A DNA stretch of 64,000 nucleotides from an uncultured Kiritimatiellota bacterium (GTDB taxonomy: Bacteria; Verrucomicrobiota; Kiritimatiellia; RFP12; DVOR01), in contig CALXSE010000007.1 in the NCBI GenBank assembly GCA_944391085.1, forward strand, positions 1-64,000. The letters are read 5' to 3'. The stretch's first letter is position 1. Each line of letters begins with the position of its first letter. Below the pieces are notes generated by a model. The model was not told the DNA's origin. It worked only from the letters and a program-made list of their open reading frames with translations, and did no database searches. Shown in pieces: positions 1,758 through 63,122 of the stretch. A program made the translations under genes and the position numbers.

Positions 1758-4700
1758 TCAGGGTTTCCAATCCCACTTGTAGGTGTTGGGGACGAAGGGG
1801 GTTTGGGCGCGCTCGAAGGCGTCGACCTCACTGGTGAGGACGTCGATGGCGGCGTCGAGCTGGGGGTCGCGGCCGGCGACGGCGTCCGCCGGGGTGGTTT
1901 CGACGATGACGTCGGGGAGGGCGCCGTGGAGCTCCATGTCGGTGCCGTCGAGGGTGTACCAGCCGTAGTGGGCCTGGCGGAGCATGCCGATGTCGAGGAG
2001 GGGGCGGTCTTTGGTGGCGATGACGCCGCCTTGGGTTTGGACGCCGACGAGCTTGCCGCGGCCGAGCTGCTTGATGGCGTGGGAGAAGATTTCGCCGTTG
2101 GAGACGGTGTTTTGGTTGCAGAGGACGACGATGGGCTTGTCGAAGACGGGCCGGCCCCAGTAGCCGGAGAGGTAGGCGGGCTGGCCGTGGCGGGGGACGG
2201 ACCAGGAGTGGCGCTGGACGCCGAGGATGTTGAGGACGCGGTCTGCGGTGAAGCCACCGGTGTTGTCGCGCACGTCGATGACCATGCCGGCTTTGTCGAA
2301 GCCCTCGGCGAAGATCTCGCGTTCGAAGCGGTTGTATTCGTCGTTGTTCATCTTGGCGATGTTGATGTAGCCGAAGGCGCCTCCCGAGCGGCGGTGGACG
2401 TAGTCGCGGCGGTCGGCGTAGAGGGCTTTCTGGAGGAGGTCGCGGGCCTGGCCATAGGTGATGGCCTCGATGTAGATCTTTCGGGTCTGGCCGCCGGAGC
2501 GGACCTCGATGGTGTATTTGCCGGGGCGGGGGCCGTTGAGGAGGAGGGTGGGATCCATGCCGTTGCGGATGGGCTTGCCGTCGATGGAGACGACGAGGTC
2601 GCCGGGCTTGAGGTCGACCTGGGCGGAGTCCGCGGGACCGCCGGGGATGACGCGGCGCACCATCCAGCCGACGTCGCCGGTGTAGTTGTGGTCGAATTGG
2701 ATGCCGAGGTGGGAGGTGACCGGTTCCCAGGCGTTGATGGAGGTGGAGCGCTCCCACTCCCTGCGGGAGGCCTCGGAGGGGTAGAAGCCGAGATGGGAGG
2801 CGTTCAGCTCGCCGTTGAGGGCCTGGATGATGCGGTCGAAGACGGAGGCGCAGGGGGCGTGGCGGGCCGGGGCCTGGTATTTGAGGCGGACGCGATCCCA
2901 GTCGGCGCCGTGGTGGTTGGCGTCGTAAAACTCGTCGCGGAGGGCGCGCCAGGCGGAGAGGAAGGCGAGCTCCTGGTAGTCTGGGAGGGAGAGCTCCTGG
3001 TAGACGTTGAAGGGGTAGAGCTCGTCGAAGGTGCCGATGTTGTTGTCGCTGGTGATCATGATGAGGCGGTCGGGGGTGGCGCCGGGCTTTCCGAACCAGC
3101 CGATGGGGAAGCCCCAGCGGGCGTTGAGGAAACGCGGGGTGAGGGCGTCCGGGATGGTGACCTCGTAGGTGCCGGCGCGGCCGCCGATGGTGGCGGGGAA
3201 GAGGATGCGGCGGGAGTCGGGGGCGAAGGTGGGAGCGCCCATGGCGGCGATGGGCTGGGCGTGGACGCGGCCGTGGAGGTCGTCGAAGTCGACGATGACG
3301 GGCTTGGGGCCCTGGCGGCGGGGGGCGCCGGCGTCGGCGTCGGGGCGGTTGGGGTCGGGGATGTCGAGGGCGGTCGCGCCGAGGAGCTCGGAGGTCTCGG
3401 GGCGGTCTTGGAGGCTGAGGCCCATGTGTTCGATGGCCTTGCGGTAGGATTGGGCCTTGAGGGCCTCCTCATCGTGGCGGTTGAGCCAGACGTAGAAGAG
3501 CGTGGTGCCGGAGCCGACGCGCTGGCCGTTCCAGGCGATGAGCTGGCCGTCGGGAGACCAGGCTGGGGTGCCGTCCCAGGTGAAGGAGCGGGAGAGGTTG
3601 TAGGGTTTGGCGTCCGGGTCGTCGATGGGGAGGATCCAGATGTCGCTGTTGGTGTAGTCGTCTTCCATGGCGGCGACGAGCCAGCGGCCGTCGGGGGCCC
3701 AGTCGTAGGAGTTGACGCGCGAGGTCTGTGGGAAGGTGCGGATGACGTTGCCGTCGAGGTCGGCGATGACGATGCGGCAGGTGGTCTCGACCCAGGCAAG
3801 GCGCGAGCCGTCCGGGGAGACGGAGAGCAGGGAGCGGTTGACGGCGTCCTGCTTGAGCGGGCGGACGTCGAAGGCGGCGTTCTCCCACCAGAAGTGGTCG
3901 GGGCGCGTCTTCTGGGCAAGGAGGAGCGCGGTGCCATCGCCGCGGTCGGAGAGGATGTAGAGGCGGGAGGCGTCCCTGGAGAAGACGGCCTCGCGCTCAT
4001 GGGTGCGGGAGTCGCCGTAGACGAGGCGGGGCTCGCGGAGGATGGTGTCCATGACATAGACGTCGCCGCCGGCGGTGAAGGCGAACTGGAGGCCGTCCGC
4101 GGTGGCGTCGAGGGAGCCGGCGGCGTCGTTGTTCCAGAGGTTGGTGTAGTATCGGCGGCGGGTGGGGGTCCGGGAGAGGCCGGTGTCCTCGGGGACGAGG
4201 TCGATGCGTTGGGGCGCGGCGCCGGGGCTGGTGGGGTCGAAGCGCCAGAACCAGAGGCCTTGGCGGAAGACCATGGTGCGGCCGTCTGCCGAGAGGGTTG
4301 GGGCGATGACGCTGTCACCCTCGAAGAAGGTGACCTGGCGTTCCTCGGTGCCGGGGAAGGCGTGCCACCAGATGTTCTGGGTGCCGTCCTGGCCGGAGAC
4401 GTAGTAGAATCCCTTGCCGTCCGGGCACCAGATGGGGGAGAGGCTCTCGGTGGGGTGTTTGACGGCGAGGGCGAAGGTGCGCATCTGGGTGTCGTAGCAC
4501 CAGATGCGCGCGGCGTTTTCCCCGGTGAAGCCCTTGCGGTAAAGGTTCTCGCCTTCTTGGACGAAGAGGAGATAGCGGCCGTCTGGGGAGAGGGAGGGAT
4601 CGCTGCCCATGGCGTCGAAGACCTGGCGCTCGGCGGCGCGCTCGTCGACGGGGAGCCAGGCGAGGCGACCCTGGTCGAAGATGGTGCCGTTGTCGTCGCG

Positions 4701-23353: not shown

Positions 23354-23382
23354 TTGCGTCCTTCCCGCGGATGTGATACTTT
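23354..23382 (+). promoter_or_regulatory. Promoter of the structured leader RNA before the PEP-CTERM gene
   Basis: TTGCGT (23354-23359), a 17-base spacer and TACTTT (23377-23382). The region GGATGTGATA is shared with the tRNA-Ala promoter at 25863-25891, which has the same spacing. Confidence 0.5.
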
Positions 23383-23387
23383 ATTGG

Positions 23388-23619
23388 CACGCCATGGGAG
23401 AGCCGTGGCAATGGTTTGTGCAGACGCACAAGGACATCGCTCGAAACGTAGGAACTTTCGCCAATTTGTCCGAACTGCGCGCACGCGGCATCGCGTGCCC
23501 CTTTTGGTGTTTATTGGCGGGCTTCCTACGGCCTAGAGCGAGACATCGGAAGTGGGCACGTTTTTCGTCCCCGGGCTCCCTTCCGCTTTTGTCGGGACGA
23601 ACAAGGAGACCCCTCCCCA
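23388..23619 (+). ncRNA. Candidate riboswitch-like leader RNA, copy C (terminator type)
   Basis: The 232 bases between promoter and the PEP-CTERM start hold no convincing gene but fold like two other leaders in this window (58262-58074 minus, 61824-62007 plus). Elements: 5' hairpin 23391-23409 (7-bp stem, loop GAGAG); a copy-specific hairpin 23416-23431; P0 23432-23436 with 23467-23471; P1 23437-23442 with 23536-23541; hairpin P3 23442-23460 (CGAAA/TTTCG, 9-base loop CGTAGGAAC); loop-to-distal pairing P2 23447-23454 with 23523-23530 (8 bp); GGCC at 23530-23533; hairpin I 23481-23498; hairpin II 23494-23500 with 23554-23560 followed by five Ts, which looks like an intrinsic terminator. I and II share bases, so only one can form. 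Function is inferred. Confidence 0.7.
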
Positions 23620-24285
23620 ATGAAGAAGACACTCCTCACCGCGGCTTTCGCCGCCCTGGCCCTGGGCGCCGCCCAGGCCTTGAACATCGACTGGAGCGGC
23701 GCCACGACCGTGGACATCTCCGGTTCCGTGGGCAAAGGTTCGCATACGCTGAATCTTGCCGGCGAGACGAAATGGTCTGCCAAGATCACCCTCACGCTTG
23801 GCGGCGACTTTTCGTTTGCGCAGTATCCGAGCGGCGCCAACCAGCGTTATCCCGCCCTCTTCGGCCTTAACGGTTCCGGCTACCTGATGATGGACATGTC
23901 CAATGCTGACGCGCCCCAAAACGGCACTGTCACCGGTGGCATCGTCTCCGGAAGCGTGACGCAGGGCAGTTCGGTCAAGCTCGAGTCGGGCAAGTCGTAT
24001 ACGCTTACCCTTTCCTCTGACGGGGAGCTGCTTGCGCTTTACATCAATGACACGTTGATCGCCACCTCCACCACCATCCCGGAAGGTGACCTTGCGTTGA
24101 TCTGGGGCCAGCGGAACACCACTGGCAATGCGCCGCTCGTGAACGGGGACAACGCGGTTGGTTCGGACGTCACCTTCAGCGATCTGACGGTGAAGACCGG
24201 CGTGGCCGTGGTGCCCGAGCCGACGGCGCTGGCGCTGTTCGCGCTTGGCGTGGCCGGTGTGGCGCTTCGCCGCCGTGTGGCGTAA
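23620..24285 (+). CDS. PEP-CTERM sorting domain surface protein
   Basis: This 221-residue secreted protein has a signal peptide (MKKTLLTAAFAALALGAAQA) and a C-terminal PEP-CTERM signal: VVPEPTALALFALGVAGVAL followed by RRRVA. That signal is recognised by an exosortase/archaeosortase-type enzyme, which cleaves it and is usually linked to extracellular polysaccharide production. The middle (residues about 25-195) is Gly/Ser/Thr-rich and beta-strand-like, resembling a lectin or laminin-G sandwich (LLALYINDTLIATSTTIP), but no family is certain. AAGGAG precedes the start. The gene is controlled by the leader RNA at 23388-23619 and ends in a terminator at 24304-24338. Confidence 0.9.
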   Translation: MKKTLLTAAFAALALGAAQALNIDWSGATTVDISGSVGKGSHTLNLAGETKWSAKITLTLGGDFSFAQYPSGANQRYPALFGLNGSGYLMMDMSNADAPQNGTVTGGIVSGSVTQGSSVKLESGKSYTLTLSSDGELLALYINDTLIATSTTIPEGDLALIWGQRNTTGNAPLVNGDNAVGSDVTFSDLTVKTGVAVVPEPTALALFALGVAGVALRRRVA

Positions 24286-55257: not shown

Positions 55258-56817
55258 CTATTTCCCCGGCTTCCGGAAGCGCCCGGGCAGCCTCGCCTGC
55301 ACCCGCGTCAGCACGAACGCCCGCTCCTCCGCGTCGAAGACGACGCCCCACAGCAGCGGCAGGAAGACCGCCTCCGCCACGAGCGTCGTCACGCCCACGC
55401 GCCAAATGGAGGGTGCCATGAACAGATGCGGTAGCGCCCCCACTGCCCCCGCCGCCGCCGTGGCGACCCCCACGGGGAAGACCACGCGGAAGGCCCATTT
55501 CCGGATGCTCATGCCGGCCAGCCGCCGCGCGAACCACAGCCGCACCCCCATGTGCACCGCCGAGATGAAGGCCACCGAGCCGCCGACGGCGTAGACGTTG
55601 CACCCGTTCGCCACGAAGACCCACGCCAGCGGCAGCGCCAGGAAGCACGTCAGCCCCAGCGCCAGCTGGAAGGCCGCGATCCGCCCCTTGGCCGTGATGG
55701 CGGTGCCCTGGCCCGTGGTGGCGGTGTTGCACAGCAGGTCGGTCATCATCAGGTAACACAGCCCCACCGTGAAGGGCGGCGGTTCCTTGAGCCACAGGGT
55801 GACGACCTCGCGCAATTCCAGCGCCAACGGCAGCAGGAAGAGCAGCGAGAGCGTCAGCCCGAACTTGCTGGAACGCTCCGCCAGCCGGCGCATCCGTGTC
55901 TCGTCCCCCGCGCCGCACTCGGTGGTGATGGCCGGCGTGAAGGCCCCGATCATCGCCGACGAGAGGGTGTTCGCGTGGCCGTTCACCGAGCCGGCCACCG
56001 TCATCGCCGCGTTCACGCGCGGCCCGAAGAACTTGTTCACCAGCAGCATCACGCCCTGCGCCCGTGCCAGCCACCCCAGCGCCCCGAAGAGCTGCCACCC
56101 CGCGAAGTCGCAGAGTTGGCGGAAATGGCGGCGGCTCCGGCAATAGCCCAGGCGGAAGCGGCACTCCGGGAAGATCGCCCGCGCACGCAGGCAGATGATC
56201 ACCTGCGGGATCACCGAGAGCAGGCACGTCCAGAGCGCGTAGCGCACCAGCCAGTCGCCGGGGTGCGACACCATGAACCACAGGACGCACACGTTCAGCG
56301 TCGTCGTCGCGAAGCTGTAAACCGTCAGCTCCGCGATGTACTGTTTGGCCGTGTACATCGCCGTGTAGGGCACGTTCACCATCCCCACGAAGCACGAGAC
56401 GCAGACAAAGCGGAAGACCCACTCGCAGGCCTCCACCCGATCTGGCGGAATGGTCAGCCATTCGCGCACCGCCCACATCCCCAGCGGGTAGCCCACCACG
56501 ATCAGCGCACATGGCACCGCCGTGTGGATGAGCACCGCGATGCTGAACCACCGCCGGCACTCCTCCAGCCCCTCTGCGGGCCGCGTCTTCGCCATCCCAA
56601 CGGAATAGGCATAGAAGCGTGAGATGGAATAGGAGAGCCAACTGTTGAAGAAGGCGATGAAGGCCGTCAGGCCCCCCACCACCCCCATCAGCCCGTAATC
56701 GGTCTGCCCCAGCGCCATCAGCGCCCACCGGCCCGAGAAGAGCCCGCAGACCAGCGCGTAGACAGACCGCCCGTAGGTGGCCGCCGTGTTCAGGATGATG
56801 CGCTTGTTTTCCGTCAT
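55258..56817 (-). CDS. Polysaccharide flippase (Wzx/MATE-like)
   Basis: This 519-residue protein with about 12-14 membrane helices starts MTENKRIILNTAATYGRSVY and has LMGVVGGLTAFIAFFNSWLS and PYTAMYTAKQYIAELTVYSF. This layout is typical of O-antigen/lipopolysaccharide translocases that flip lipid-linked sugar units across the inner membrane. It lies directly downstream of the QueC-like PP-loop gene, with overlap ATGA, under control of the leader RNA at 58262-58074. It probably exports the glycan that the first gene helps modify (inference). Confidence 0.85.
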   Translation of the reverse strand: MTENKRIILNTAATYGRSVYALVCGLFSGRWALMALGQTDYGLMGVVGGLTAFIAFFNSWLSYSISRFYAYSVGMAKTRPAEGLEECRRWFSIAVLIHTAVPCALIVVGYPLGMWAVREWLTIPPDRVEACEWVFRFVCVSCFVGMVNVPYTAMYTAKQYIAELTVYSFATTTLNVCVLWFMVSHPGDWLVRYALWTCLLSVIPQVIICLRARAIFPECRFRLGYCRSRRHFRQLCDFAGWQLFGALGWLARAQGVMLLVNKFFGPRVNAAMTVAGSVNGHANTLSSAMIGAFTPAITTECGAGDETRMRRLAERSSKFGLTLSLLFLLPLALELREVVTLWLKEPPPFTVGLCYLMMTDLLCNTATTGQGTAITAKGRIAAFQLALGLTCFLALPLAWVFVANGCNVYAVGGSVAFISAVHMGVRLWFARRLAGMSIRKWAFRVVFPVGVATAAAGAVGALPHLFMAPSIWRVGVTTLVAEAVFLPLLWGVVFDAEERAFVLTRVQARLPGRFRKPGK

Positions 56818-58073
56818 GGCCGCACCCGAGGGGCCCGCAGTCTCCTCAGGCGTCCCAGCACGGGGTGGATCGCCGCGTGGAGCCACCGCACGCGCGCCAG
56901 GCGCTCGTACAGCAAACCCAGCCAGACGCGCACGCGCACGGGGAATGCGATCTCGCCTTTCAGCCGCTCGTAAGCGGGCTTGCACATCTCGTCGTCGGAG
57001 GGGATCAGCTGCTGCTTGTACAGCCAGGCCAGGTTCCGCTCGCGCCGGGCAAGGTAGGCCGCCACGTCGAAGACGTTGTCGAACCGCTGCAGGCAGCCCA
57101 GCGCGTCCAAGGCCGTCAGCGTGCGCAGGCATTTCCCACACGCCCCGCAGTTGGGACCGGTGTTGGCGAGGCAGACATGGAGGTATTTTTGCGCCGGTTC
57201 CCAATCGGCCAGTTCCTGTTCCTTCTCGAAGCGCGTGATGGTACAGCCCTCAGAGTAGATTTGCAGGGTCGGCGTGGAGAAGCAGTCCAGGGATAGGAGC
57301 TCGTAATGGCTTGAGGCGTTTTGTTCATTGTCTTTGAGCGAAAAGCCGGATTGCAGGTCATAGCCGGAGGAGGCGTAGAAATAGACCCGCCAGAGTTTTT
57401 GCAGCGCGTAGATGGCGAAGCAGCTGGAATAGGTGTGCGTGAGCAAATGGATTTGCTGGAAGGCCTCCGCCATGTTGGAGTCGGAGACAATCAGCTCGAA
57501 GCCGTATTCTTTGGCGAACTGCCTCGCGTGCTCGGCCTGCCAGTCATACTGGCGCCCCCCGTTTTCGCTCCAGAAGGCGCCCACGTTGTTCAGGCAGAGG
57601 TGCGTCAGCGAGAGGCCAGGGTAGGGCGAGCGGGCGTAGTTCTTGACGACGTGAAGGGAATCGACGCCGCAGGAGATGCCCGTGCCCACCCCGCCCGCGT
57701 TCGCCATCGGCGTATCGTCCATCGGCGCCTCGATGCGCGTCTCGTACAGCACCTTGCTGTTGCGCGCCAGGGAGGGGATCAGGTAGGTGCGGATCTGGTA
57801 GAGCAGGCGCGCGGTCACGGGGGCCTCGCAGACGATGTCCAGCCGCTCGCGCTGGGCGAAGTTCAGCAGCCCGATGAGGAAGGCGTCCGCGCGCTCCGCG
57901 CAGAGGTACCGCCCATACTTCTCCTCCACCTCGAACCACAGCGGGCGCACGTCGTCTTCGCCGATTCGGATTTCCGCGGTCAGCCGCGCCCGCCCGCCGC
58001 GGCGCTCGATCCTCGGCGCGCCGATCCGCATCGTCCGCACCGCCCTGGGTTCTCCCTGTTCCTTTTTGGCCAT
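56814..58073 (-). CDS. QueC-like PP-loop ATPase in a polysaccharide operon
   Basis: This 419-residue protein has a PP-loop-like motif at about 145-155, GTGISCGVDSLHVVKNYA (family pattern SGGxDS with Cys in place of one Gly). In its C-terminal third is a zinc-type cysteine cluster, CLANTGPNCGACGKCLRTLT, closely like that of QueC (7-cyano-7-deazaguanine synthase). The first 120 residues form a separate beta-rich domain (ARLTAEIRIGEDDVRPLWFE). PP-loop enzymes adenylate a carboxylate or amide. Next to a flippase this suggests sugar or uronate amide formation, or another nucleotide-dependent glycan modification; that is inference. AAAGGGAG precedes the start, and this site lies inside a switchable hairpin of the leader RNA. 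Confidence 0.72.
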   Translation of the reverse strand: MAKKEQGEPRAVRTMRIGAPRIERRGGRARLTAEIRIGEDDVRPLWFEVEEKYGRYLCAERADAFLIGLLNFAQRERLDIVCEAPVTARLLYQIRTYLIPSLARNSKVLYETRIEAPMDDTPMANAGGVGTGISCGVDSLHVVKNYARSPYPGLSLTHLCLNNVGAFWSENGGRQYDWQAEHARQFAKEYGFELIVSDSNMAEAFQQIHLLTHTYSSCFAIYALQKLWRVYFYASSGYDLQSGFSLKDNEQNASSHYELLSLDCFSTPTLQIYSEGCTITRFEKEQELADWEPAQKYLHVCLANTGPNCGACGKCLRTLTALDALGCLQRFDNVFDVAAYLARRERNLAWLYKQQLIPSDDEMCKPAYERLKGEIAFPVRVRVWLGLLYERLARVRWLHAAIHPVLGRLRRLRAPRVRP

Positions 58074-58262
58074 GATAAAGCACGCTCCCTTTCATCTACC
58101 TACCCTGCGGCCTTAGGACAGCCTTGAACGGATACATGAAAGGGAGCGCGCCAAACCTGGCACGCCCCGCCAAACATGTTGCCGTTCTTGAAAGGTCCTA
58201 GGTTTCAGGGTAGCAACCTGTTTGCGCAAAGCGAAAAAGACGATGGCTCATCCCATCGCGTG
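58074..58262 (-). ncRNA. Candidate riboswitch-like leader RNA, copy A (RBS-masking type)
   Basis: This leader on the minus strand has no gene and folds like the copies at 61824-62007 and 23388-23619. Reading 5' to 3': hairpin 58258-58241 (CGATGG, loop GATGAG, CCATCG); P0 58224-58213 with 58182-58171; P1 58213-58208 with 58105-58100; hairpin P3 58207-58189 (TGAAA/TTTCA, 9-base loop CCTAGGACC); loop pairing P2 58200-58195 with 58119-58114; GGCC at 58112-58109; hairpin I 58168-58143 (10 bp); hairpin II 58148-58136 with 58095-58083 (13 bp perfect), whose second arm covers the ribosome binding site AAAGGGAG. Hairpins I and II share six bases and exclude each other. Confidence 0.75.
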
Positions 58263-58268
58263 CCGCCT

Positions 58269-58277
58269 ATGATAGCA
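58269..58277 (-). promoter_or_regulatory. Extended -10 promoter of leader RNA copy A
   Basis: The minus strand reads TTGC-TATCAT. The distance from this box to the conserved GCGCAAAC is 41 bases, the same as in copy B. Confidence 0.6.
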
Positions 58278-58319: not shown

Positions 58320-59123
58320 TCAGGCGTCAAAGGAGCCGGAACGGAAGCCCGCGAGGTCGAGCGCGACGTGCCGGTAGCCGAGGGGGCGGAGGGCGGACAG
58401 AAGGGCCTCGCGGCGGTCGAGGGCCAGGGGGAGGGCCTCGGCGGGCACCTCGATGCGGGCGAGCGCGCCGTGGTCGCGCAGGCGCAGGTCGCGCACCTCG
58501 GGGAGGCACGCGCGGAGGGCGTCCTCTCCGGCCTCGACGCGGCGGAGGGCCGCCTCGTCCAGCCGTGCGCCGTAAGGGAAGCGGGTGGCCAGGCAGGGGG
58601 TGGCCGGCCGGTCCGCCGCCGGCACGCCGAACGCGCGGGCCACGGCGCGGACGGCCGCTTTGCCGAGGCCCAGCTCGGCGAGGGGCGAGCGGACGCCGAG
58701 CTCGTCGAGGGCGCGGAGGCCGGGGCGGTTCGCGGCACGGCGGTCGTCGGCGTTGGTGCCGTCGATGAGCAGGGCGAGGCCTTCGGCGGCCGCGCGCAGC
58801 CGCGCCATCATGAAGCGCTTGCAGGCATAGCAGCGGCCGGGGGCGTTCGCGGCGACCTCGGGCGCCGCCAGCGGGTCTGCGGGGACGCCCCGCCACGGCA
58901 CGCCCAGGCGCCCGGCCAGCGCGCGGGCTTCATCGGCCTCGCCGCGACGCTGGAGCGGCGTCTGGAGGGTCAGGGCCAGGCAGCGGAAGGGGCCTTCGCG
59001 CCGGAGCGCGGCGAGCGCGCCCAGGAGCGCCGCACTGTCCGCCCCGCCGGAGAAGGCCAGCGCCACGCCGCCGACGGCGTGCGGGCGGAGCCAGGCGAGC
59101 AGACGCGCCTCAGCCTCGGTCAT
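58320..59123 (-). CDS. larE: ATP-dependent sacrificial sulfur transferase LarE
   Basis: This 267-residue PP-loop enzyme builds the nickel-pincer cofactor of lactate racemase and related enzymes. It shows the PP-loop ALAFSGGADSAALLGAL, a Cys pair in GRCYACKRFMMARL, DGTNADDRRAANRPGLRAL, and PATPCLATRFPYGARLD with the conserved Cys. In the family LarE donates sulfur to the nicotinate-derived precursor made by LarB. It is the last gene of the operon: transporter, larB, larC, larE. It overlaps larC by 14 bases. No racemase gene larA is in the window. Confidence 0.93.
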   Translation of the reverse strand: MTEAEARLLAWLRPHAVGGVALAFSGGADSAALLGALAALRREGPFRCLALTLQTPLQRRGEADEARALAGRLGVPWRGVPADPLAAPEVAANAPGRCYACKRFMMARLRAAAEGLALLIDGTNADDRRAANRPGLRALDELGVRSPLAELGLGKAAVRAVARAFGVPAADRPATPCLATRFPYGARLDEAALRRVEAGEDALRACLPEVRDLRLRDHGALARIEVPAEALPLALDRREALLSALRPLGYRHVALDLAGFRSGSFDA

Positions 59124-60315
59124 GGGCCTCCCGCGCGGCGGCCTGGGCCAGCGCAAAGGCTTCGGGGAGCGCCATGCCGGCGGCCTGAGCGGCGGCGCGG
59201 ACGCTGTCGCACTCGGGGTAAACGCGCACGACGCCCGCGCCCTCGCACCGTTTCGCGGCAATCGCCCCGATCGGCGTGTCGAGGGTGACGGGGCGGCGCG
59301 CCATTACCGTCCGCGCGACGGGGTAGGTGCGCACGCCGATGGTGGTGGTCTCGCGGAAGAGGGCCTGCGTGAGGGCCGATACGCGGGCCTCGTCGGCCAG
59401 CGCCTTGAGGATGTACGCGGGGCGGCCCTTCTTCATCAGGCAGGGCACGAAGCAGACGTCGCGCGCGCCGAGGGCCATCAGGCGCTCCGCGGCGGCGGCC
59501 ATGACCTCGCCGGTGCAGTCGTCAAGATTCGCCTCCAGCGCCACGATCCGCCCCTCGGCGGGCGCCTCGGCGCGGACGATCAGGGCGCGCAGGGCGTTGG
59601 GCGCGCCGAAGTCGCGCTTGCCCAGGCCCACGCCGACCCGCTCGACCACGAAGGGCGCGGGGAGCGCGGCGTGCGTGCGCAGCGCCGCGGCCAGGGCGAT
59701 GCCCGTGGGGGTGACGCGCTCGCCGCGCACGGCGGTCAGCTCCAGCGCGATGGCGTGGGCCTGGGCGACGTTAAGCGTGGCGGGCACGGGCACGGGGAGC
59801 TCCCCGTGGGCGCAGGCGACGGTGCCGGTGCCTTCGCAGAGGCGCGTGACCACGCAGCCGTCAAGGCCCAGGTCGTCGAACAGGACGGCCGCGCCGACGA
59901 TGTCGGCGATGGAGTCCAGCGCGCCGACCTCATGGAAGTGGATTTCCCCGACCGGGCGGCCGTGGGCTTTGGCCTCGGCCTCGGCGACGATGCGGAAGGC
60001 GCGCTCGGCGAGGGCGCGCGCGTTCGCGCTCATCGGCAGGTGGGCGAGCACGTGCGCCACGTCGGCCAAATTGCGGTGCGCGTGGTGCTGGTGGACGTTG
60101 CCGTGGTGGGGGTGCTCGGGCAGGCGCACGTCGAAGTCGCACCCGGCCAGGCCGTGCGAGTCCTTGCGGGAAATGGCGTAGGCGAGGCCCTCCCGGGCCA
60201 GGGGGGCGAGGGCGGCGTCGAGCTTCGCGCGGTCGGCGCCGAGGTCGAGGAGCGCGGCCACGGCCATGTCGCCGCTGATGCCGCAGGCGCCGTCAAGATA
60301 GAGGAGTCTGCTCAT
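59110..60315 (-). CDS. larC: Nickel insertion protein LarC
   Basis: This 401-residue protein inserts nickel into the pincer cofactor using CTP. It starts MSRLLYLDGACGISGDMAVA and carries a His-rich stretch around residue 70 (HPHHGNVHQHHAHRN) that probably binds nickel. Other conserved parts are EIHFHEVGALDSIADIVGAA, LEANLDDCTGEVMAAAAERL and VCFVPCLMKKGRPAYILKAL. Here LarC is one continuous frame, unlike Lactobacillus where larC1 and larC2 are joined by frameshifting. It overlaps larB by four bases (ATGA). Confidence 0.93.
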   Translation of the reverse strand: MSRLLYLDGACGISGDMAVAALLDLGADRAKLDAALAPLAREGLAYAISRKDSHGLAGCDFDVRLPEHPHHGNVHQHHAHRNLADVAHVLAHLPMSANARALAERAFRIVAEAEAKAHGRPVGEIHFHEVGALDSIADIVGAAVLFDDLGLDGCVVTRLCEGTGTVACAHGELPVPVPATLNVAQAHAIALELTAVRGERVTPTGIALAAALRTHAALPAPFVVERVGVGLGKRDFGAPNALRALIVRAEAPAEGRIVALEANLDDCTGEVMAAAAERLMALGARDVCFVPCLMKKGRPAYILKALADEARVSALTQALFRETTTIGVRTYPVARTVMARRPVTLDTPIGAIAAKRCEGAGVVRVYPECDSVRAAAQAAGMALPEAFALAQAAAREAHDRG

Positions 60316-60992
60316 GGGGTTCGCTTTCTTTGGGCCAGGCGGAGGATGCGGCAGGCCATGACGGCGGCGCCGAAGCCGTTGTCGATATTCACCACGGCCA
60401 GGCCCTCGGCGCAGGCGTTGAGCATGGAGAGGAGCGGGGCCAGGCCCTGGAAGGAGGCGCCGTAGCCCACGGAGGTCGGCACCGCCACGACGGGCGCCTC
60501 GACGAGCCCGGCCACGACGCTGCCGAGCGCACCCTCCATCCCGGCCACGGCGATGACGACGTCCGCCGCGCGCACCTCGCCCAGGCGGCCGAGCAGGCGG
60601 TGGAGGCCGGCCACGCCCACGTCGTAGCAACGCGCGACCTCGGCGCCGAAAAAGGCCGCCGTGCGGGCCGCCTCCTCCGCCACGGGCACGTCCGCCGTGC
60701 CACCGGTGAGGACGATGACGCGCCCGAGCGTGGGCGTGGCGGGTGGGCCGAGGGTGAGCGTGCGCCCAAGGGCGTCGTAATCCGCCGCCAGCCCGGACTC
60801 CGCCACGGCGCGGGCCTGTTCGGGCGAGCAGCGCGTGCCCAGGACGCGCTGGCCCGCCTCGGCGAAGGCGCGGAGGATGGCCACGAGCTGCCCGGCGGTC
60901 TTGCCGGGGCAGTAGACCGTCTCGCCCATGCCGGTGCGGCGCGGGCGGGAGAGGTCGAGGCGGGCGAACCCGAGGTCGGCGTCGTCGCTCAT
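60312..60992 (-). CDS. larB: Pyridinium-3,5-biscarboxylic acid mononucleotide synthase LarB
   Basis: This 226-residue enzyme carboxylates nicotinic acid adenine dinucleotide in the first step of nickel-pincer cofactor synthesis. It is PurE-like: VIVLTGGTADVPVAEEAART, GLHRLLGRLGEVRAADVVIA, VAGMEGALGSVVAGLVEAPV, and the motif AVPTSVGYGASFQGLAPLLS near the C-terminus. It starts a base or two after the transporter stop (60994), so it is coupled to it. Confidence 0.93.
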   Translation of the reverse strand: MSDDADLGFARLDLSRPRRTGMGETVYCPGKTAGQLVAILRAFAEAGQRVLGTRCSPEQARAVAESGLAADYDALGRTLTLGPPATPTLGRVIVLTGGTADVPVAEEAARTAAFFGAEVARCYDVGVAGLHRLLGRLGEVRAADVVIAVAGMEGALGSVVAGLVEAPVVAVPTSVGYGASFQGLAPLLSMLNACAEGLAVVNIDNGFGAAVMACRILRLAQRKRTP

Positions 60993-60993
60993 C

Positions 60994-61719
60994 TCACTGT
61001 TGGGCGGCGGCGCGCTCGAGGGACCATTCCAGACCGTCAGGGGCCGTGGAGGCGAGGGGCGAGAGGCCGAAGATCAGGAGCGCGGCGCAGACCGCGAAGC
61101 CGGCCGTCAGCGTCTTCCAGGAGAAGGCGCGCGCCTGCGCCAGCGTCAGGAGCATCCCCGTCAGCAGGCCCTCGCCCAGGCCGATGGCCAGGTGGATGGG
61201 CTGCATCGCCGTCAGGAAATCGCCCATCCGCAGCGCGCTGACGCCCGAGAGCGCCACCTCCGCGCACACGGCCAGGGCGCCCAGCTGCAGGGCCGCCACG
61301 GAGGCCGCCATCGCCAGGAGCATCGTCGCCAGCGGCGAATGGGGTTTGCCTCGGAAGGCCACCGCCCCGCAGGCGCACCCGATCAGGCCCATGTTGAAGA
61401 GGTTCGCGCCGTAGGCCAGGAAGCCGCCGTCGTTGAAGCCCAGGCACTGGACAAGGAGGATGGCGGCCATCGTCACGAAGGCCGCGCACGGCCCCAGCAG
61501 GGCCGTCAGGAAGACCGCGCCCACCAGGTGGCCGCTCGCCCCGGTGGCGGGGATGGCGCAGTTCATCATCTGCGCGCCGAAGACGAAGGCCCCGGCGCCG
61601 ACCATCAGGGGCAGCTTCTCCTTCGTGAGCTTGGGCAGGGCCGCCCCCAGGGAGGTGCCGGAGAGCCCCCACATCGTCGCGCCGACCGCCGTCGAGACCA
61701 ATGCCGATTCCATGTGCAT
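60994..61719 (-). CDS. CbiM/NikM-type nickel transporter substrate-binding membrane protein
   Basis: This 241-residue membrane protein belongs to the CbiM/NikM/LarM group, the metal-binding part of energy-coupling-factor transporters. The N-terminus MHMESALVSTAVGATMWGLS is diagnostic: the terminal Met-His binds the metal, and a second His lies in ATGASGHLVGAVF. Six or seven helices follow, e.g. FVTMAAILLVQCLGFNDGGF. With larB, larC and larE downstream the metal is almost surely nickel. The partner ATPase and coupling proteins are not in the window. The start at 61719 is set by the MHM terminus and the GAAAGGAA ribosome binding site. Confidence 0.9.
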   Translation of the reverse strand: MHMESALVSTAVGATMWGLSGTSLGAALPKLTKEKLPLMVGAGAFVFGAQMMNCAIPATGASGHLVGAVFLTALLGPCAAFVTMAAILLVQCLGFNDGGFLAYGANLFNMGLIGCACGAVAFRGKPHSPLATMLLAMAASVAALQLGALAVCAEVALSGVSALRMGDFLTAMQPIHLAIGLGEGLLTGMLLTLAQARAFSWKTLTAGFAVCAALLIFGLSPLASTAPDGLEWSLERAAAQQ

Positions 61720-61752
61720 GACCAGGTTCCTTTCTCTGAAAAACACCCATAC

Positions 61753-61808: not shown

Positions 61809-61817
61809 TGGTATCAT
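61809..61817 (+). promoter_or_regulatory. Extended -10 promoter of leader RNA copy B
   Basis: TGG-TATCAT; the same -10 hexamer as copy A and the same 41-base distance to GCGCAAAC. Confidence 0.6.
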
Positions 61818-61823
61818 GAGGGA

Positions 61824-62007
61824 CACTTCGCGGGAGAGCCGCGGGAACACTGCGCTTCGCGCAAACATGTTGCCCACCTGAAACTTGAGAACTTTCATTG
61901 ATCGGGCGATGCGTTTGGAGAGGCGTGCCGTATCGGTACGCCTTTCCTTTCTGTCCGGTCATAGGCATCTCAAGGCCTCAGGTGGGCGGAAAGGAAGGGC
62001 GTATTTT
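61824..62007 (+). ncRNA. Candidate riboswitch-like leader RNA, copy B (RBS-masking type)
   Basis: This leader folds like the other two copies: hairpin 61829-61843 (CGCGG, loop GAGAG, CCGCG); P0 61862-61875 with 61904-61917 (several wobbles); P1 61873-61878 with 61981-61986 (CCCACC/GGTGGG); hairpin P3 61879-61897 (TGAAA/TTTCA, 9-base loop CTTGAGAAC); loop pairing P2 61884-61890 with 61968-61974 (7 bp); GGCC at 61974-61977; hairpin I 61921-61943 (10 bp, loop TAT); hairpin II 61939-61951 with 61989-62001 (13 bp, one wobble). The second arm of II covers the ribosome binding site GGAAAGGAAGGG. I and II overlap by five bases. Confidence 0.78.
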
Positions 62008-63122
62008 ATGCAAACGGGACTCTCGCCGCTGACGAGCGGGAAGCTGGCCAACCTTGGCTTTGTGCGCGTGCCTGGTCGTCGCCATCCATGTGCGGGTTGA
62101 GGCGGAGGTCGGCAACGCCTGCTGGTGGTTCTGCGGGCTGTTGAAGGATGGGGTGGCGCGGATGGCCGTGCCGTTCTTTTTCGCCACGGCCGGCTTCCTG
62201 CTGGCGGGCCATGCGCGGGAGGCGCGCTGGTGGGTCAGGGAAACGGGGAAGCGGGTGCGCACGCTGCTTGTGCCTTACCTGATTTGGCCGCCTTTGTTTG
62301 TGTTGATGACGCTCGTGCTCATCGTTGCGGCGAATGCCGTGGCCGGGGCGGCGCCGTCGCGCAATTTCCCGGACTGCGCAGTGGCGTGGCTTCGGCTGCT
62401 TGGGTGGAACTTCCTTGGGCCTGGGCCGGTCGGGCCGGAACTCTATACGTTTTGGTTCGTCAGGGAGTTGTTCATTTTGGTCTTGTGTTCGCCGGTTTTG
62501 CTGTGGCCGTCGAGGAAAGGCAAGGCGTGGGGTGGGCGTGGGTGGCGCTGCTGTGGGGGATCTACGGCGCTTCCCGTCCGTGGGAGATGGACGGCGCGGG
62601 GGTGGTGGACATCCCGTTCCCGTTGTCCCTTGAGGGCGTCTTTTACTTCACGCTTGGCCTTTTCCTCAGGGAACGGCCTGTCCGCCTGAATCTTCCCGGA
62701 TGGTGCGGCGTCGGGCTGCTGGCGTGCGGGATGGCGTTGTTTTGGCTGACGGCCTGGGCCGAACTGCGCGGGCTGCCGTGGTTTGCCTATCCGCGCTGGG
62801 TCGGCATTCAGGCGGCGTTGCTGGGGGCGTGGGGCGTTGTGCCGGGTAGGGCGTGGCCGCGGGGGTGACGGCGTTTTCGTTCCCGCTGTTCGCCCTTCAT
62901 CCGTTTGTCATGCGCCCGATGGAGTTGTTGCCGGAGGTGGTTCCTGCGCTGGGAAGGTTGAGGACGGAGATCGCCGGGCTTGTGATAAGCTTTGCGTTCG
63001 CGGTGGCGGCGAGCTGGGTGGGCTTCGTCTGTCTGCGGCGGTTCTTGCCGCGCTTCTCCGCGGTGGCCTTCGGCGGGCGTTATGCGGGGCGGGACAAACG
63101 CGCGGCGGCAGGCCCGCGGTGA
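62008..63122 (+). pseudogene. Acyltransferase family 3 gene with three frameshifts
   Basis: From the ATG at 62008 the reading MQTGLSPLTSGKLANLGF breaks within about 55 bases. It continues in another frame as LCACLVVAIHVRVEAEVGNA and MAVPFFFATAGFLLAGH, typical of membrane acyltransferases that modify surface glycans. A second shift near 62505-62530 leads to WAWVALLWGIYGASRPW and LEGVFYFTLGLFLRE, and a third near 62850 leads to VTAFSFPLFALHPFVM, ending at 63122. Together these give about 370 residues with eight to ten helices, so the whole family length is present but broken. Either the gene is dead or the sequence contains errors. The upstream leader RNA is intact. Confidence 0.8.

Follow-up and report, generated by a model that had tools for sequence, protein, structure and literature searches.

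A conserved leader RNA family with competing helices upstream of surface and restriction-modification genes in Kiritimatiellae and Bacteroidota

The window analysed here, a 64,000-nucleotide stretch from the contig of an uncultured Kiritimatiellota bacterium, carries three copies of a leader RNA of ~190 bases each, at the sites where an earlier note on the sequence had placed them. Copy A lies on the minus strand at 58074-58266, from RNA start to U-run (175 bits, E 1.8e-54), copy B on the plus strand at 61818-62007 (143 bits, E 5.2e-44), and copy C on the plus strand at 23383-23565 (112 bits, E 6.6e-34). The ATG of the ORF at 56814-58073 (minus), which encodes a 419-aa protein matching no Pfam family, stands directly 3' of copy A; its homologue in the relative G004, a member of the host's genus, likewise follows a leader (L278). 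Copy C lies 5' of a gene (23620-24285, plus) for a 221-aa secreted protein with a PEP-CTERM signal (PF07589, E 1.1e-6). Directly 3' of copy B is the ATG of an acyltransferase gene (62008-62400) that starts as MQTGLSPLTSGKLANLGF and continues in another frame after a one-base frameshift near 62059, being either a pseudogene or the product of an assembly error. The minus-strand region between A and B (58323-61750) looks like a cluster for synthesis of the nickel-pincer (lactate racemase) cofactor, with a PP-loop protein, a Ni_insertion (LarC-like) protein, an AIRC (LarB-like) protein and a membrane protein, perhaps a CbiM/NikM transporter, that has no Pfam match.

Each leader is preceded by an extended -10 motif (TGnTAnnnT): TGCTATCAT at 58269-58277 (minus) for A, TGGTATCAT at 61809-61817 (plus) for B and TGATACTTT at 23374-23382 (plus) for C. 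In 25 of the 29 host-genome copies the motif is found directly 5' of the element, with a constant spacing. Most copies in front of PEP-CTERM genes also display a TTGC at a -35-like distance, which is mostly missing from the other copies of this genome. Loci L018-L046 fall into two promoter subclasses, one with the extended -10 only (mostly glycan and restriction-modification genes) and one with TTGC plus the extended -10 (mostly PEP-CTERM genes).

A single architecture had been proposed for the three leaders, and helices HP, P1, P2, P3, P4 and II are found in all of them. Copy A begins at its 5' end with hairpin H1 (CGATGG/CCATCG with a GG-AUGAG-CC apex, 58241-58258 minus), which is 97% paired across 48 sequences. 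On the same strand, helix P4 joins ACAGGTTGC (58221-58213) to GCAACATGT (58182-58174) by 8/9 pairs and covaries in the family, and P1 joins CTACCC (58213-58208) to GGGTAG (58105-58100; 6/6 pairs). Hairpin HP (TGAAA/TTTCA, 58189-58207) carries in its loop P2a, the first strand of the putative kissing helix P2, which pairs CTAGGAC (58201-58195) with GTCCTAA (58119-58113; 6/7 pairs). P3 is formed by GAACG (58187-58183) and CGTTC (58130-58126) and is extended by P3x, ACATG (58179-58175) with CATGT (58138-58134); the tip of this arm is hairpin H5 (GGCGTGCC/GGCGCGCT, 58145-58166; 8/8 pairs, and 97% paired in the 48 sequences). Hairpin P5, GGC (58123-58121)/GCC (58111-58109), holds the second strand, P2b, in its loop, and its closing pair covaries. 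Helix II pairs GCGCGCTCCCTTTCAT (58151-58136) with ATGAAAGGGAGCGTGC (58095-58080) at 16/16 positions; it is terminator-like, with a T-rich tract behind it, and includes a Shine-Dalgarno-like AAAGGGAG.

The plus-strand copy B repeats this arrangement: P4 is ACATGTTGCCC (61865-61875) with GGGCGATGCGT (61904-61914; 10/11), P1 is CCACC/GGTGG (61874-61878 and 61981-61985; 5/5), HP is TGAAA/TTTCA (61879-61897), P2 is CTTGAGA (61884-61890) with TCTCAAG (61968-61974; 7/7), P3 is TGATC (61899-61903) with GGTCA (61957-61961), and H5 is GGCGTGCCG/CGGTACGCC (61922-61942; 9/9). Its P5, AGGC/GCCT enclosing P2b (61963-61978), was recognised by eye and agrees with the covariation in the family. Helix II, TACGCCTTTCCTTTC (61937-61951) with GAAAGGAAGGGCGTA (61989-62003; 15/15), is followed by TTTT and the ATG. 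Copy C, also on the plus strand, forms P1 from TCGCTC/GAGCGA (23437-23442 and 23536-23541; 6/6), HP from CGAAA/TTTCG (23442-23460), P2 from CGTAGGAA (23447-23454) and TTCCTACG (23523-23530; 8/8), and P3 from GCCAAT (23460-23465) and ATTGGC (23513-23518). Its H5 (GCACGCG/CGCGTGC, 23481-23498) and its P5 (GGC/GCC enclosing P2b, 23520-23533, with covariation in the family) were identified by eye, and its helix II, CGTGCCCCTTTTGGTGT with CATCGGAAGTGGGCACG (23494-23560; 12/17 when read ungapped), precedes TTTTT.

The earlier note had pointed to a GGCC between P2 and P1 on the distal side. This GGCC is present; what had escaped notice is that it is the 3' strand of P5, a short hairpin displaying P2b in its loop. 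P5 was counted by motif, and the fixed columns of alignment A8 shift register at P5 and P3. The closing pair is C-G in 59 sequences, U-A in 22, U-G in 6 and C.A in none, a Y-R covariation with a Fisher p of 1.7e-15 (uncorrected for descent), and the stem is inverted (GCC/GGC) in two sequences. With the GGCC as the 3' side of P5, our reading is that P1, HP, P3 and P5 meet in a four-way junction, in which P2 is the kissing contact between the loops of HP and P5.

The leader is widespread. Searching copy A against its own genome with blastn returned homologues of 69-76% identity with E down to 1e-28, and a covariance model (R1), built from an alignment of 13 copies with P2, P4 and II left out, detects 29 copies across the 1.7 Mb of the host genome (E <= 1.5e-13); these values exclude chance as the origin of the family. 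With R1 the leader was found in 32 of 40 relatives, with 1 to 32 copies each, and in at least 56 of 193 genomes of the host class, a lower bound because stricter filters were applied there. A core pattern of 27 letters, GAAACCTAGGAANNTTC, a gap of 55-85 nt and TCCTAGGGCCTC, hit 102 stretches in named genomes (80 loci among the matches listed), in Kiritimatiellae, several other Verrucomicrobia and chiefly Bacteroidota, including Prevotella, Segatella, Xylanibacter, Pedobacter, Mucilaginibacter and Paludibacteraceae. A two-phylum model (R2), made from 65 sequences of the Kiritimatiellae group and Bacteroidota, was positive in 62 of the 241 host-phylum genomes and in 34 of 296 Bacteroidota (E <= 1e-4); copy numbers in this survey are minima, since scoring was confined to a few top candidates from each genome. 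The search of related genomes proposed in the earlier note yields many matches. The core pattern has no match in viral contigs, and one Bacteroidota copy used as a blastn query has none in phages and plasmids; on these grounds we rejected an origin in mobile elements or phages. At L022 (G000:C4:2776-2972 and 4208-4409) two leaders stand 1.4 kb apart with a GT8 gene between them; their first ~80 nt are identical and the later part is divergent, which looks like gene conversion.

Compensatory changes, taken from the outset as a sign of a conserved RNA, hold up in the enlarged set: P1, P2, P3, H5, P4 and II covary far beyond the controls. In 48 distinct sequences aligned to R1, 88.3% of the pairs in the junction state are standard ones, and its doubly changed cells number 503 vs 157 after shuffling (0/500, phylogeny uncorrected); its pairing falls to 35-46% once partners are slid. 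P2 is 98% paired, with double changes at 7/7 of its pairs. Likewise, the alternative state is 78.2% paired with 308 vs 116 doubly changed cells (0/500, phylogeny uncorrected), and its helix II is 91% paired across 12 pairs. Over 89 sequences from both groups, P1, HP and P2 together are 96.7% paired with 352 vs 97 doubly changed cells and helix II is 87.8% paired with 142 vs 47, none of these counts carrying a phylogeny correction. The covariation of P2 and II is not circular, because neither was in the model behind the alignment. In both groups, complementarity in P4 scores 15.5-16.0 vs 12.0-12.2 for mismatched partners (sd about 0.5), an excess of about six to eight standard deviations. A further caveat on these counts is that Bacteroidota sequences picked by the pattern all share CCTAGG as their loop; divergent Bacteroidota copies replace CCUAGG/CCUAGG by the kissing pair CUGGUA/UACCAG. 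GAAA/UUUC and GGY/RCC are fixed in the kissing-loop core, and family members are about 160-200 nt long.

Some features fared less well. The 5' GG-NGAG-CC hairpin described at first occurs in Kiritimatiellae copies but was not seen among the Bacteroidota copies. Helix P0 (5' GCACGC/3' GCGUGC) exists in copy A and many others and is missing from B and C, so we place it outside the family consensus. Helix H2 is out of register in alignment A3, where it is 47% paired, and was therefore not used as evidence. A hairpin III seen by eye 3' of the U-run in PEP-CTERM copies is not claimed, 13 of 200 shuffles being as good.

The proposal of two alternative pairings that share strands survives with an altered set of helices, P0 out and P5 in. 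P4 is built with the 5' strand of P3x, while II recruits the 3' strand of H5 together with a portion of P3x, such that H5 (with P3x) and II have one strand in common, as do P3x and P4. P1, P2, P3 and P5 are compatible by nucleotides with both sets, apart from one base that P1 and P4 have in common in A; the exchange would thus set P3x with H5 against P4 with II. A U-run follows IIb, the 3' strand of II; in 87 of 89 sequences 4 or more of 7 letters there are T. In the host lineage IIb holds AAAGGA-like purines about 12 nt 5' of the ATG, and the ATG lies 0-5 nt past the U-run in many host-genome copies. In Bacteroidota loci L088, L092 and L129 a second hairpin, with AUAAGC...GCUUAU-like arms, lies between the U-run and the ATG and may hold the start codon.

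We examined the genes behind the leader. The surface-glycan context suggested earlier is real, and its range proved broader, taking in PEP-CTERM, restriction-modification and TonB receptor genes. In the host genome 13 of 26 scanned products are PEP-CTERM proteins, and 13 of its 30 PEP-CTERM genes carry the leader. Among the remaining products are two GtrA proteins, GT4 and GT8 glycosyltransferases, an acyltransferase, a restriction helicase, a methylase of the EcoRI type, a methylase domain of the MmeI type and a protein resembling FrhB. The relative G004 has the same gene set, and leader-gene pairs recur there. Behind the pattern-picked Bacteroidota leaders the amino-methyltransferase motif [NDS]PP[YFW] is present in 20 of 47 first genes vs 8 of 266 other ORFs from these loci (p 8e-13; gene-class p-values are optimistic because sequences in the sets are related), and Pfam names in Bacteroidota include MmeI, EcoRI_methylase and N6_N4 methylases. 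The model-found Bacteroidota set is led by TonB receptors (6/43), methylases and ECF sigma factors. In Bacteroidota the nearest downstream ORF is on the strand of the RNA in 52 of 58 cases (p 3e-10), and the strand of the upstream neighbour is random (29 vs 28).

We compared the leader with known RNAs. No Rfam 15 family matches the window, Kiritimatiellae or Bacteroidota copies at the gathering cut-off, and at loose thresholds (E 1-5) none matches at the position of the RNA in these sets; weak chance matches, to Guanidine-III and the like, are located outside it. This agrees with the first impression that the leader is no standard riboswitch aptamer. A T-box leader was rejected, having no Rfam match and target genes other than amino-acid genes. 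Bacteroidales-1, Flavo-1 and Pedo-repair (Weinberg 2010, PMC2864571) are likewise structured RNAs that comparative analysis uncovered in Bacteroidota; their Rfam models (RF01693, RF01705, RF01715) match no tested copy. A keyword look-up in the main texts of PMC8040213, PMC11109978 and PMC2864571 found no description of the leader. The openly readable main texts that were searched do not describe the family, and contain no case of leader-RNA control of restriction-modification or PEP-CTERM genes. Together, the many matches, the strong covariation and the negative Rfam search support an uncatalogued family of conserved leader RNAs.

Resemblances to known riboswitches are partial. Many-copy riboswitches such as those for c-di-GMP precede surface-related genes, and the leader resembles them in its many copies and in its aptamer-like core joined to putative control of a terminator or ribosome site; it differs in having no Rfam match, another fold and restriction-modification targets. 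The purine riboswitch is a three-way junction with kissing hairpin loops. The leader likewise has two such loops and a helix junction that would gate a terminator, but its junction would be four-way and its kissing helix consists of 6-7 consecutive, freely covarying pairs. In the SAM-I riboswitch a loop pairs with a junction strand. A four-way junction, a loop pseudoknot and transcription attenuation would be common to both, and SAM provides a link to methyltransferases; in contrast, the loop of the leader pairs with another hairpin loop, no Rfam model matches, and most targets are not SAM enzymes.

By its position the element is a 5' leader of a gene, it has an aptamer-like core with covarying structure, and conserved pairing gives it mutually exclusive expression-platform helices (H5/P3x vs II, P3x vs P4). 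We think, with a probability of roughly 0.7, that it represents a new class of cis-acting transcription attenuator. Our best reading is that it is riboswitch-like in its working; we withhold the riboswitch label from a family known from sequence comparison. From the exclusive helix sets, the U-run and the purine-rich IIb we infer the following model, including its termination step, direction and signal. Docking of the core would zip the P3-P3x-H5 arm and leave IIb single-stranded, allowing read-through transcription (gene ON); in Kiritimatiellae, free IIb would also expose the purine-rich start signal. When the core is undocked, P4 and II would form, and II with the U-run would act as an intrinsic terminator and also bury the start signal (gene OFF). 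In this model the sensor would be the core, reading one global signal for surface, glycan and DNA-modification targets alike. Our first guess for that signal is a small ligand, and which way the switch works is likewise a guess. Since P1, P2, P3 and P5 avoid II and barely touch P4, the core could also coexist with P4 and II as a larger pseudoknot. Three points count against an attenuator: in Bacteroidota a local hairpin 5' of the U-run competes with II for one strand, minimum free energy folds without pseudoknots favour neither state consistently, and large-loop terminators, as in the Kiritimatiellae copies, are unusual.

Other explanations fit parts of these data. The attenuator could be built the same way but have a core recognised by a protein, or by an RNA acting in trans, as in ribosomal-protein leaders and T-boxes. 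The core is mostly paired bases and, because the sequences of P1, P2 and P3 vary freely, offers few fixed contact letters, and the target genes have no single common pathway; the fixed GAAA/UUUC and GGY/RCC of the kissing core, which resembles compact ligand-binding junctions, make us regard this as somewhat unlikely. A 5' leader of fixed structure that does not switch, which might stabilise the mRNA or serve as an insulator, or else a promoter-bearing dispersed repeat, would account for the tandem copies at L022 with their identical first half, as a copied repeat would give. We hold it to be improbable, given that both exclusive pairings are conserved with compensatory changes, that sequences have diverged until structure is nearly all that remains, and that collections of phages, plasmids and viral contigs have no match to the core pattern or the one Bacteroidota query used on them.

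Processive antitermination of long surface operons, with the RNA modifying the polymerase, would suit the surface-glycan genes among the targets, and such systems typically serve horizontally variable operons. The leader shares with JUMPstart/ops (with RfaH) and EAR of Bacillus (epsC, RF01735) its place before surface polysaccharide genes, but the JUMPstart and epsC Rfam models match nothing, its fold is a switch-like one of 190 nt, and a U-run of its own closes the element. The host genome (89% complete) has a single NusG-family gene and yielded no specialised paralogue of the RfaH/LoaP type, which weakens an RfaH-type mechanism, and single PEP-CTERM genes are among the clients; we consider antitermination very unlikely. 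The element starts at a promoter and finishes in a terminator-like helix, which would equally befit a free-standing small RNA with targets in trans and a merely incidental neighbour downstream. This is the least probable of the explanations considered: downstream ORFs in Bacteroidota are mostly on the same strand (52/58), many host-genome copies have an ATG 0-5 nt past the U-run, the gene classes are strongly non-random, and a genome holds 29 diverged copies.

For the attenuator reading, the alignment yields exact predictions that can be tested, namely HP-P5 kissing and helix II as a terminator. With 29-32 copies per ~2 Mb genome, a wide spread and strong covariation, the family has few equals among uncatalogued RNA classes. 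We tentatively suggest, at somewhat less than even odds, that it is a new riboswitch class through which one global signal jointly sets restriction-modification genes and those at the interface with phages and the surroundings (PEP-CTERM surface proteins, surface glycans, TonB receptors), in both phyla. The signal, once found, would reveal what these bacteria read before they alter their surface and DNA modification.
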